Positions 41,653 to 56,325 of a stretch of 64,000 nucleotides of DNA are shown here, one piece after another. Within the stretch, counting starts at the first letter, position 1. Each line of letters opens with the position of its first letter. The notes below the pieces were generated by a model, which saw nothing but the letters and a program-made list of their open reading frames with translations, made no database searches and was not told where the DNA came from. A program made the position numbers and the translations under genes. The DNA is taken from contig NC_003070.9 of assembly GCF_000001735.4 (NCBI RefSeq), positions 29,869,971-29,933,970 of the forward strand, read 5' to 3'. Source of the stretch: Arabidopsis thaliana. Its lineage: Eukaryota; Streptophyta; Magnoliopsida; Brassicales; Brassicaceae.

Positions 41653-41738
41653 AGGCTCAGATTATAAAAAGAAGTTTACATCAACGAGCGAAAAACCTCT
41701 CAAAGTTTGATGGTAATCTTGTTTCATCATCATCGCCG
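41653..41738 (-). ncRNA. Box C/D snoRNA-like sequence 2 (about 86 nt)
   Basis: On the minus strand: short 5' stem GGC, box C in GATGATGATGA (41734-41724), box C' TTGATGT (41684-41678), box D CTGA (41660-41657) and 3' stem GCC. Box D' would be the degenerate TTGA at 41704-41701. The antisense stretch before D' reads GATTACCATCAAACT. Order, spacing and length fit a C/D snoRNA that guides 2'-O-methylation. No rRNA or snRNA target could be assigned, and the closing stem is only three pairs. Confidence 0.45.
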
Positions 41739-41771
41739 AAGTAAAAATAAAACTAATGATCTTAGATCTAA

Positions 41772-41842
41772 AGCCTCAGAAAGTGGAGGTAATCGTCAAG
41801 GAGAAACTCAGATGGTACGGACAATCTCAAACATCACAGGCT
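41772..41842 (-). ncRNA. Box C/D snoRNA-like sequence 1 (71 nt)
   Basis: Minus strand: stem AGCC/GGCT closes box C GTGATGT (41837-41831) against box D CTGA (41779-41776). Internal box D' CTGA (41811-41808) and box C' TGACGA (41798-41793) are present. All four boxes lie in the right order with normal spacing. Candidate guides end at D' (GATTGTCCGTACCAT) and at D (GATTACCTCCACTTT); the nucleotide opposite the fifth guide base would be the methylated one. The target is not recognised. A telo-box/site II/TATA promoter lies about 110-170 bases upstream, typical of independent plant snoRNA genes. Confidence 0.55.
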
Positions 41843-50363: not shown

Positions 50364-52706
50364 CTAAAGATCTATCAGCACCTGCTTTCTATGTCTATGA
50401 TATTTCAAAATCTCGAATCGAAGCATCGAGTCAACATTGTACCCTGCACGTTCCATTCTGTTTGTAAGTTGCGAAACAATCTCCATCTTTTCTGTTGATT
50501 CCAGGAGGGAGCTTAGGAGGTAGTTGCAAACTCTAGGCATCAGCTTGAAGTTGTTATCTAGAGTGTATAAGAACACCTCTATTGCAGCATCAAGTTGTTC
50601 TCTTTTGCAGAGTCCATGAATCAGTTTGACACAGCTCGGAGGTGTTACAAGGATCTTCTTCTCCCTTAAAACCGAAAACACCATCAAGGCCTCGTGAAAT
50701 CTCCCTGATTGGCATAACCCGATAAGCCATATCGTGTAAGGCCCTAAAGTTAACTCGTCTTTTCTGGTATCTAATTCAATAAGTCGTCTTAAAGCTCTCT
50801 CGGTTTCCCCTTCCTTGAAACATTGTTCAATCTCATTAGCTGTTTCATCATCCAGACAAGATATCTTCTTAAGGTATTTCATCCATAGATTAAAAGCCAC
50901 CAAGACTTTTCTTTTCCGACATGACCATGTCATGAGCGATCTGTAAACCGCGGGACTGTGTCTAAAATCATCTTTAGCGTAAAAGAGTTTAAAAGCTTCT
51001 TCTTCTCTGCCGACTCTATGAAGTCCATTGATGAGAGTGTTGTAAGTGACGCTATCAGGGGATAATCCCTTTAGTTGAAGCACATTGAGAAGCTTGAGAG
51101 CACCGTCAATGTCTCCTGCTCTGCAGAACCCATTTATAAGAACATTGTAAGAAACAATGTCTGGCGAACTCCCGGTATCAGCAAAATGTGCAAGATCCCT
51201 GTATGCCTTGAGAATCGAACCGGATTCAACCATGGTGTCAAAACTCCGGTTTCCACTGTGCGAAAGCCTAAGAAACAAGGAAGCAGGTCTCCCGACCTCC
51301 ATTTTATGCAACAATAACCTGGCTTCCTTGAGCTCACCGGACTTGCACAGTCCATCAATTAAAGCATTGAACGTAGCAACCGAAGGAGAACAACCACTCT
51401 TCTCAATCTCCGTAAAAATTTCTTCAGCTTCCCTAACCAGCCCATTCCTGCACATACTACAGATAAGAATTGTGTGTGTGCACGCATCAGGGAAGGATTC
51501 CGTTTCTGACATTTCGAGTTGGAGGGACCGACCCTCTTCCAAAAGTCCCCTCCCACATAGAGCCTTTATAACAGCATTGTAACAGTAGGTATCTGGGCTA
51601 ATGCCCTTACTTGGCATGCTGCTTAACAGCTTCAATGCATCCTCAATCTTACCGGCTTTAGATAACCCTTGAATCAATATCGTGTACAAAATGATGTCAG
51701 GTTTAATATTCTTCTTCAGCATATTTGCATACAGCTCAAATGCCTGAGTGTATCTCCTAGCTCTGAACAATCCATCGATTAAACTGCTATAACCTCGAAG
51801 ACCAAGCACAAAACCATCTTTCTCAAAAAGCCGCAACAGCTCAAATGCTTCAACCATCCGACCCAATTTACAAAACCCATCAAGCAAAGCATTGTGTGCG
51901 ACGGAATCAGGATAGTTACCGCTCGTTTGCATCTCGTAGAATAGCTTTCGTGCATCGTCAGCACTTCCCCTCTGACACAAACCTGAAATGAGAATGGTAT
52001 AGGTAACTCTGTTAGGCGAAATTCCTCTACCGGTCATATCGTCGAACATCTTCTGTGCATCACTCGTTCTCCCTTTCTTATACAATCCATCCATCAAGAT
52101 ACCAAACGTGTATAGATTTGGGGAACAATTGCACTTGAGCATTTCATTGTACACAGCAAAAGCCAGCATAAAGAAGACCTCCTCTCGCATCATGACTCGC
52201 AATATCACGTTGTACGTGAACACATCGGGTCTGCAATCAAACTCCTTCATCCTTCCAAACGATTCCACTGCTTTTTCCGCCATACCCATCTTAGCATAAG
52301 CAGAGATCAAAACACAGAAGCAATAAGAATCGACAGAGACGCCACCAGATTTAAGCTCCTCCAATGTCTGCCAATATAGATCGCAACCATTATCTTCAGA
52401 GAGCATATCGATGACCAAACCAAAAGACTCTCGGCTCCTGAGACGCTCTCTTCTCGACGCCCATATAAAAAAACGGAATCCTAATTGTCTATTGACCTCA
52501 TCTTTGATTACCGATGTGATGATATTCTTCGAGAGAAACGGAACAAGCGGCTCCAAAGCAGGCTCTATAGGTTTCTTCTTAGCTAGAATGCTGATGACCT
52601 CGCCGGAGATATTGAATTCGGCGTTACCGGAAGAGTAGGAACGTTGCATCCATGACGGCTTTGAATAGAACTGAATGACTGATCGAAAGAACATCTGTGG
52701 TTTCAT
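50364..52706 (-). CDS. P-class PPR protein, 780 aa
   Basis: Intronless, 780 codons. The start ATG has no in-frame ATG upstream, and the first 30 residues are Arg/Ser-rich with no acids (MKPQMFFRSVIQFYSKPSWM), pointing to mitochondrial import. About 15 to 17 canonical 35-residue P-type PPR units run from roughly residue 115 to 750, for example PDVFTYNVILRVM, PNRVTYTILISGLCQRG, PDIILYTILIQGLSKAG and PDSVTYNTLINGLHRVG. The repeats are sharper than those of EMB2217, as in Rf-like PPR proteins. It should bind organellar RNA; the target is unknown. At1g79540 from memory. Confidence 0.93.
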   Translation of the reverse strand: MKPQMFFRSVIQFYSKPSWMQRSYSSGNAEFNISGEVISILAKKKPIEPALEPLVPFLSKNIITSVIKDEVNRQLGFRFFIWASRRERLRSRESFGLVIDMLSEDNGCDLYWQTLEELKSGGVSVDSYCFCVLISAYAKMGMAEKAVESFGRMKEFDCRPDVFTYNVILRVMMREEVFFMLAFAVYNEMLKCNCSPNLYTFGILMDGLYKKGRTSDAQKMFDDMTGRGISPNRVTYTILISGLCQRGSADDARKLFYEMQTSGNYPDSVAHNALLDGFCKLGRMVEAFELLRLFEKDGFVLGLRGYSSLIDGLFRARRYTQAFELYANMLKKNIKPDIILYTILIQGLSKAGKIEDALKLLSSMPSKGISPDTYCYNAVIKALCGRGLLEEGRSLQLEMSETESFPDACTHTILICSMCRNGLVREAEEIFTEIEKSGCSPSVATFNALIDGLCKSGELKEARLLLHKMEVGRPASLFLRLSHSGNRSFDTMVESGSILKAYRDLAHFADTGSSPDIVSYNVLINGFCRAGDIDGALKLLNVLQLKGLSPDSVTYNTLINGLHRVGREEEAFKLFYAKDDFRHSPAVYRSLMTWSCRKRKVLVAFNLWMKYLKKISCLDDETANEIEQCFKEGETERALRRLIELDTRKDELTLGPYTIWLIGLCQSGRFHEALMVFSVLREKKILVTPPSCVKLIHGLCKREQLDAAIEVFLYTLDNNFKLMPRVCNYLLSSLLESTEKMEIVSQLTNRMERAGYNVDSMLRFEILKYHRHRKQVLIDL

Positions 52707-53540: not shown

Positions 53541-53547
53541 TTGAACT
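53541..53547 (-). terminator. Plant snRNA 3'-end signal
   Basis: AGTTCAA fits the plant Pol II snRNA 3' consensus CA(N)3-10AGTNNAA. The CA is at 53559-53558, ten bases before it, exactly after the last stem of the RNA. Confidence 0.6.
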
Positions 53548-53557
53548 GAGGGATTAA

Positions 53558-53687
53558 TGGAGCAAACTTCAGATGAAGTTACTCCTCCAAAAATTGGTGT
53601 ATGCCGTTTAGCGTGGAGAACACACGGTATTCTTTAGTAAAAGGCGAAAGAATAGTTCGCTTTGTATTCACCACACGGCTCCATAAC
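53558..53687 (-). ncRNA. U5 small nuclear RNA, divergent variant (about 130 nt)
   Basis: On the minus strand TATTCTTT and AAAGAATA form a perfect 8-bp stem around the loop CGCCTTTTACT, the invariant U5 loop 1 that aligns exons in the spliceosome. A lower stem pairs GTGTGG with CCACGC. The Sm site AATTTTTGG is at 53595-53587, followed by a 3' hairpin with AACTTC/GAAGTT and an outer GGAG/CTCC. Canonical plant U5 begins AUACUCUGGUUUC; this RNA differs outside loop 1, so it is a variant. The USE, TATA box and 3'-end signal are all in place with Pol II spacing, so it is probably transcribed. The exact 5' end (about 53684-53689) is inferred from TATA distance. Confidence 0.8.
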
Positions 53688-53711
53688 TTCTGAAGTGAGT
53701 GCACCAATGCA

Positions 53712-53763
53712 TTTTATATGTGAATCCTTCCACATCTACTTTCTGTTCCATCCGATGTGGGAC
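53712..53763 (-). promoter_or_regulatory. snRNA promoter: USE and TATA box
   Basis: GTCCCACATCG (53763-53753) is a perfect plant upstream sequence element. TATAAAA (53718-53712) follows after 34 bases. That spacing is the one used for Pol II snRNA genes such as U5; Pol III U6 genes use about ten bases less. Confidence 0.85.
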
Positions 53764-53890
53764 GATTTCTGATGTCGTTATTTGTCGTTATTGGGCAATT
53801 TCTGGGCCTTTAACTTGTCTAATGAGAACTCAATAACAATCGACTCTATAGAAACTATTTAGCTAAGAATTATCGAACTGATGATTTAAT

Positions 53891-53978
53891 GGAGCGGACT
53901 TCATATGAAGTTGCTCCTCCAAAAATAGGTGTATGCCGCTTAGCGTAGAGAACACACGGTATTCTTTAGTAAAAGGTG
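53891..53978 (-). pseudogene. 5'-truncated U5 snRNA copy
   Basis: About 85% similar to the U5-like RNA over loop 1, the 3' arm of the main stem, Sm region and 3' hairpin. It stops just 5' of the loop: the 5' half of the stem, the USE and the proper TATA are missing. Loop 1 reads CACCTTTTACT instead of CGCCTTTTACT, and the Sm site is TATTTTTGG. The 3'-end signal is also altered (AGTTCGA). It is a non-functional duplicate about 310 bases upstream of the intact gene. Confidence 0.7.
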
Positions 53979-54376: not shown

Positions 54377-56325
54377 TCAAGCTTCGTCGAGAGCGAGGAC
54401 TCCTGGAAGTGGCTTACCCTCAAGAAGCTCCAAACTAGCACCGCCTCCGGTAGAGATGTGGCTCATCTTGTCTGCCAAACCAACCTTCTCGACGGCAGCA
54501 ACAGAGTCACCTCCTCCAATGATTGTGGTTACTCCCTTTCCGCTTAGTTCTGCAAGCTGCTTTGCTACGGCCTGATGGTGAAACAAGACAAGAGATTGGG
54601 TTAGTTAAGTTGGGTTTCTCCGATTAACAAACATGTTGAAGACAGATGATTAACAAACATGTTGAAGACAAATGGATTTAGACAAAAGTGAGACTAAAAC
54701 TTGTGTTTATATGTGTTTAGTTGCTCATACCTCAGTTCCAGCAGCAAACTTATCGAATTCAAACACACCCATGGGACCATTCCAGATGATGGTTTTGGTT
54801 GTGTCCAGAGCTTCGCTGAATGTCTTGATGGAGTCTGGACCAATATCTAGACCCATCCAGCCATCAGGGATGGCAGTGGCTGGCACTATCTGCAAGAGTC
54901 ATATGTGTCAGCTTTAAAGAGACCAGACCAGACGCTTAAATGTTTTACTTTCATACATGGCCCATTGAGAGTCAACCACAATGACTGTGATAGTTACCTT
55001 GCTGTTAGCATCGGGAGCAAACTTGTCAGCAATAACCACATCGGTTGGGAGCAAGAGAGAGACACCTTTGGCCTTTGCTTTCTCCATGAGTGACTTTGCC
55101 AAGTCAAGCTTGTCCTCCTCCACAAGGGAAGATCCGACTGAGAGTCCTTGTGCCTTGTAGAAAGTAAAAATCATACCTCCACCGAGCAGGAGGATGTCAA
55201 CTGTGTTCAAGAGAGACTCAATGACACCAATCTTTGTTGAAACCTTTGAGCCTCCAACAATGGCAGCAAAAGGCTTCTTGGGGTTTGCCACAGCTCCGAC
55301 AAGGTAATCAAGTTCCTGACACAATAAAACAAGTAATAGTCTGATCAGTAAAATAAAGAGACTCATCTAAGAAGATACTCTTTATGCTGCAAATTTTAAA
55401 TACCTTCTGCATGAGGAAACCAGCAACTGAAGGCTTCAAGAATTTGGCAACTCCCTCAGTGGAAGCATGAGCTCTGTGAGCAGTTCCGAAGGCATCATTA
55501 ACGTAAACATCGGCAAGAGCAGCAAGCTTCTTTGCAAATTCAGGATCATTCTTCTCTTCCTCGGCGTAGAACCTCACATTCTCCAAGAGCAAAACACCAC
55601 CTTCAGGTAGTCCTGCAACCAACTTCTGGACTTCCTCACCAATAGAGTCATTTGCCATTACAACCTATTAACACAAACAGAGTGAGAACAGTGTTCTTTT
55701 AAAAGCTAATGTTCAGAAACCTTGCAAGTCTAGAAGAGGAAGAGGAACAAACCTCAACACCAAGAAGTTCAGACAATCTGGGCACAAGAGGCTTTAAGCT
55801 GTACTTAGGAGTAACACCTTTTGGGCGGCCCTGAAACATAAATTGAGATCAGATACATCCATTAATTCAACAGCATCATCCAATTGAACTTGAGTATAAA
55901 CATATCCAAGTAAACTTACTAAAACAATTACCCAAACAACACCAGAAAATCAACCGATAGAGTCAATGAACATATTGAAAAACAAGAATACTATATCTAC
56001 ATCCTAACATGCAAAGAGACTCTTCTTATACGCATGGCTCTCCGGATAAACAGATCAGATCAAAATTCCCACACCAAAATTACAACAGATAAGCAAGTAG
56101 TGAAGTGAGAACTGAGATAAGATATCATACCAAGTGACTGCAGAGAACAACCCTAGATCCATTACCCATCAAGTACTTGATGGTGGGAACAGCGGCACGA
56201 ATCCTGGTGTCATCGGTGATGTTAGAGTTATCATCCAAAGGAACGTTGAGATCAACCCTCACGAACACACTCTTTCCCTTCAGATCCGCTTCCTTCAAAG
56301 TTCCAACGCTTCTCTTCGTCGCCAT
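54377..56325 (-). CDS. PGK3: Phosphoglycerate kinase, cytosolic, 401 aa
   Basis: Six exons: 56325-56131, 55830-55753, 55664-55404, 55315-54998, 54889-54731, 54571-54377, joining to 401 residues. There is no N-terminal extension before [20 protein letters not shown], so this is the cytosolic isoform. Substrate motifs are [15 protein letters not shown] (split by intron 1) and the glycine-rich [13 protein letters not shown] nucleotide site near the C-terminus. It transfers phosphate between 1,3-bisphosphoglycerate and ADP in glycolysis. A leader intron precedes the ATG. Together with GAPCP1 the window carries two consecutive glycolytic activities, but they act in different compartments and are not an operon-like pair. 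Confidence 0.97.

Follow-up and report, generated by a model that had tools for sequence, protein, structure and literature searches.

The minus strand at positions 53541-53763 of the window, the whole stretch of 64,000 nucleotides from chromosome 1 of Arabidopsis thaliana that was analysed, carries a complete U5 snRNA gene. Very probably, this locus is atU5-9 (At1g79545), a member of the Arabidopsis set of 14 full U5 copies, and works as an ordinary U5. A gene read from raw sequence was thus confirmed as a real U5 snRNA gene and placed in a catalogued family of 14; the small gain in knowledge is an unlisted truncated copy next to it and a set of paired base changes through which the U5 genes of Arabidopsis preserve their long stem. 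The Rfam U5 model (RF00020), proposed as a check in the preliminary description, matched positions 53680-53564 (minus strand) over its full length (1-117 of 117) with 95.2 bits, well above the gathering cut-off of 40 (E = 1.7e-15). The gene comprises the following features:

53753-53763, minus strand: USE (upstream sequence element) GTCCCACATCG, exact match
53712-53718, minus strand: TATA box TATAAAA, 34 bases after the USE
53558-53690, minus strand: U5 snRNA (atU5-9), from the RF00020 match and the fold, 5' end uncertain by several bases
53647-53654 with 53628-53635, minus strand: loop-1 stem TATTCTTT/AAAGAATA, 8 bp, checked by letter
53636-53646, minus strand: U5 loop 1 CGCCTTTTACT, closed by the 8-bp stem
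53587-53595, minus strand: Sm site AATTTTTGG, its first A being a T in the other 13 U5 genes
53559-53585, minus strand: 3' terminal hairpin, from the fold and checked by letter
53541-53547, minus strand: 3' box AGTTCAA, ten bases after CA, fitting CA(N)3-10AGTNNAA

The preliminary description had named the same parts, and a letter-by-letter recheck found the USE, the gap of 34 bases and TATAAAA exactly where it had put them; the 8-bp stem around the loop, the Sm site, the 3' hairpin and the AGTTCAA end signal ten bases after CA were likewise in place. A putative 5' end of the RNA at about 53684-53690 is consistent with the distance of some 30 bases to the TATA box.

The alignment to known Arabidopsis U5 genes, also proposed in the preliminary description, placed it next to U5-8, and the gene turned out to be listed already. 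Table 1 of Wang and Brendel 2004 (PMC545797) gives atU5-9, At1g79545, on the minus strand of chromosome 1 at 29928543-29928447, and the 97 query bases (86-182) which align with other U5 genes correspond to 29923650-29923554. Chromosome, strand and the match length of 97 bases are the same, and both ends are shifted by 4893 bases, an offset that a change of assembly version would explain; no difference from the table entry was found. Since strand, match length and, with a constant shift, position agree, the two are taken as the same gene, which is not new and was catalogued in 2004. In a literature search of full texts without supplements, no paper besides PMC545797 was found that names At1g79545, none besides it was found for At3g25445 (atU5-8), and no match was found for "U5-9" combined with snRNA and Arabidopsis. 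In the PMC545797 table, GenBank identifiers stand beside U5.1, U5.1b, U5-3, U5-5 and U5-6, not beside U5-9; the same survey finds USE and TATA in all 14 U5 genes and judges all of them active.

The USE GTCCCACATCG is the single site of its kind in the window even when one mismatch is tolerated, but taken alone it is weak evidence because 34 of 100 shuffled windows also contained at least one such match. An exact USE was found in all 14 Arabidopsis U5 genes, with a gap of 32-36 bases to the best TATA-like box, and 13 of them have the six letters TATAAA without a mismatch. In plant snRNA genes, a USE-TATA spacing of about 34 bases goes with transcription by Pol II rather than one of about 25, and U6 genes are transcribed by Pol III. 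For comparison, 16 of 22 U6 matches, those above the cut-off, were examined; six of the 16 carried an exact USE no more than 120 bases upstream, and in these the first gap from USE to TATA was 25-26 bases. The gap of 34 bases in U5-9 therefore has the Pol II spacing and fits the U5 genes, not U6, so that the reading as a U5 snRNA gene whose signals are of the Pol II type stood and transcription by Pol III was ruled out. A genome search for the USE followed by 31-37 bases and TATAWA gave 122 matches (overlaps counted separately) vs 0 for the reversed control, and many among the first matches listed resemble a repeat family. Therefore, it is the covariance-model match, not the promoter taken alone, that is diagnostic. 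The 3' box fits the consensus CA(N)3-10AGTNNAA, as given in PMC545797 and PMC5079582, exactly; an exact AGTNNAA no further than 140 bases from loop 1 occurs in only 5 of the 14 U5 genes, U5-9 among them. As a separate observation, a repeat in which an exact USE stands about 34 bases from TATAAA occurs at many sites on contigs C1 to C5 among the matches listed (for example C1:759058-759108), and it may be a mobile element which carries an snRNA-like promoter.

At the level of the RNA, loop 1 CGCCTTTTACT is identical in 14 of 14 U5 genes, the loop-1 stem of U5-9 forms 8 of 8 pairs, and the predicted Sm site AATTTTTGG is followed by a 3' hairpin, as in a U5. The fold of 53558-53689 has a z-score of -4.0, none of 200 shuffles folding as well. 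Pairing was then compared across the family in a structure of 23 pairs made up of the stem base, the long stem and the loop-1 stem, from which the 3' hairpin was omitted because it aligns poorly; since the structure was built from Rfam plus the same 14 sequences, it is favoured over the slid controls used below. U5-9 forms all 23 as standard pairs, and one mismatch each is seen in U5.1, U5-4, U5-5 and U5-10; in total, 98.8% of 322 cells pair. Eight pairs are changed on both sides across the 14 genes (mean of shuffles 3.8), and none of 500 shuffles reached that count or the observed covariation score. These shuffles ignore relatedness; slid controls, which keep it, had at most 4 pairs changed on both sides. 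One of five measures did not exceed the shuffles, that of further pair types (15 observed vs 15.5 in shuffles, 414 of 500 being as high).

The search of the genome (119.7 Mb, 7 contigs) with the Rfam U5 model, in which 46 of 12494 first-look candidates were scored, gave 14 U5 matches, all above the cut-off. The survey in PMC545797 also lists 14 U5 genes, and the loci were named by position against its table. U5-9 has the highest Rfam score (95.2), followed by U5-8 (95.0) and the remaining genes (79.1-90.4). Its identity to the 12 genes other than U5-8 is 71.1-77.3%, and averaged over the other 13 genes it comes to 76.1% overall and 88.0% through the Sm site; the corresponding means are 82.2% and 91.4% for U5.1 and 71.1% and 83.3% for U5-11. 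Of the 390 columns that differ between U5-9 and the other 12 genes, 247 are located beyond the Sm site, in the variable region of the 3' hairpin. U5-10 to U5-13 depart from the remaining genes more than U5-9 does. These values make U5-9 moderately different from the majority group and less so than U5-10 to U5-13. The atU5.1 family (U5.1, U5.1b, U5-2 to U5-7) is 72.7-77.3% identical to U5-9 and shares with it loop 1, the stem architecture, the exact USE, a TATA-like box and the Sm-site core ATTTTTGG; the sequence of the 3' hairpin differs, and the base of the long stem reads GCCGT/ACGGC in U5-9 vs mostly GCCAT/GTGGC in the atU5.1 family. The word "divergent" in the preliminary description is thus right only in part: U5-9 does stand apart with U5-8 from the other 12 genes, but it has the highest of the 14 Rfam scores, and its differences lie largely after the Sm site and are exceeded by those of U5-10 to U5-13. 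A divergence at the level of the two-gene subfamily with U5-8, and at that level only, is weakly supported by the sequence comparison.

The closest relative among the full copies, atU5-8 (At3g25445), lies on contig C3 (chromosome 3 in the PMC545797 survey) and has the same type of 3' hairpin. The two RNAs are 93.7% identical, and identity over the 228 bases of promoter, RNA and 3' box is 82.9%; they were grouped in a FastTree tree with a support value of 0.915. The USE-TATA gap of U5-8 is 36 by scan, within a TATATATAAA run, vs 34 in U5-9. In the aligned RNA region the two genes differ at 8 columns. Columns 16 and 63 are partners, where G-C in U5-8 is A-U in U5-9, as it is in U5-11 and U5-12, and at column 17 the C-G pair of U5-8 is U-G in U5-9. 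Column 89 gives U5-9 the Sm site AAUUUUUGG, which matches the Rfam consensus; at columns 71, 73 and 74 U5-9 carries the commonest base of the other 12 genes, and the difference at column 110 falls in the 3' hairpin. A larger segmental duplication was not found when 4,001 bases of the window were compared with 3,225 bases around U5-8; this comparison returned the 228-base gene match, the partial copy described below and one inverted 21-base match.

The subfamily could be taken to mean that U5-9, perhaps together with U5-8, is a specialised isoform expressed in certain tissues or conditions, its stem and 3' hairpin altering the assembly or stability of the U5 snRNP. A variant of restricted expression had also been considered possible in the preliminary description. 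The support value of 0.915, the 3' hairpin and promoter spacer sequence which U5-8 and U5-9 have to themselves and the missing GenBank identifier beside U5-9 in the PMC545797 table would agree with this. However, loop 1 is identical in all 14 genes and the exon contacts should therefore be the same, U5-9 keeps 23 of 23 pairs, the majority of the columns in which it differs from the other 12 (247 of 390) fall after the Sm site, and all 14 U5 genes share the exact USE. We therefore regard a specialised isoform as very unlikely, and equally so the proposal that U5-8 and U5-9 together form a functionally distinct isoform, in which changes to the long stem and 3' hairpin would give a U5 snRNP for particular tissues or stresses.

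As an ordinary U5 gene, U5-9 would act as established for the family: the USE and TATA box at Pol II spacing would start a short transcript, the 3' box would direct cleavage of this transcript immediately beyond the 3' hairpin, the RNA would bind Sm proteins and enter the U5 snRNP, and the unchanged loop 1 would hold the exon ends as in any other U5. Since all 23 pairs of U5-9 are standard, including the two-sided change from G-C to A-U, there is no sign of decay, and from its sequence U5-9 is apparently an intact member of an ordinary multicopy family. That it is a recent pseudogene which still looks intact is highly improbable; a broken copy does adjoin it, but none of its 23 pairs is broken (U5.1, whose row is starred in the PMC545797 table, has one broken), the change at columns 16 and 63 preserves pairing, and no damage is seen in the USE, TATA box, Sm site or 3' box.

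The broken copy sits 332 bases upstream of U5-9:

53872-53976, minus strand: 5'-truncated tandem copy of U5-9, 105 bases, beginning inside loop 1

It spans the gene from the interior of loop 1 to a point shortly beyond the 3' box. The gene nearest to it is U5-9, with 11 differences (89.5% identity over 105 bases), 3 of them in the first 61 bases, followed by U5-8 with 85.8% over 106 bases. Six other U5 genes match its first 61 bases only (93.4%) and the remaining six match over 59-63 bases (85.0-91.8%). The copy keeps the Sm site and 3' hairpin, and the 3' box is altered to AGTTCGA (53879-53873). With E values up to 1 allowed, Rfam did not match it, and no USE was found in the 300 bases upstream, where the best USE-like site has 4 mismatches. 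Its fold is still slightly better than those of shuffles, with a z-score of -2.1 and 7 of 200 shuffles as good. The PMC545797 table has no row for it among its 14 U5 genes, and the tandem list of that survey names U2-10 and U5.1, not this place. Most likely, the copy is a pseudogene. Its Sm site has the T that is found in 13 of the 14 genes, so the copy may predate the gain of the A by U5-9; the simplest account of its origin would be that the gene was duplicated in tandem and the copy then lost its 5' half.

In the surroundings, a PPR gene on the same strand (ORF 50364-52706) starts about 835 bases downstream of the U5 gene, and a phosphoglycerate kinase exon (54914-55366) lies about 1.15 kb upstream. 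Between this exon and the U5 gene, a 26-base unit is present in two head-to-tail copies (54622-54673, 96% identical). Elsewhere in the window, Rfam identified two tandem box C/D snoRNAs at 41653-41842 on the minus strand, snoR117 (41771-41842) and snoR116 (41653-41738).
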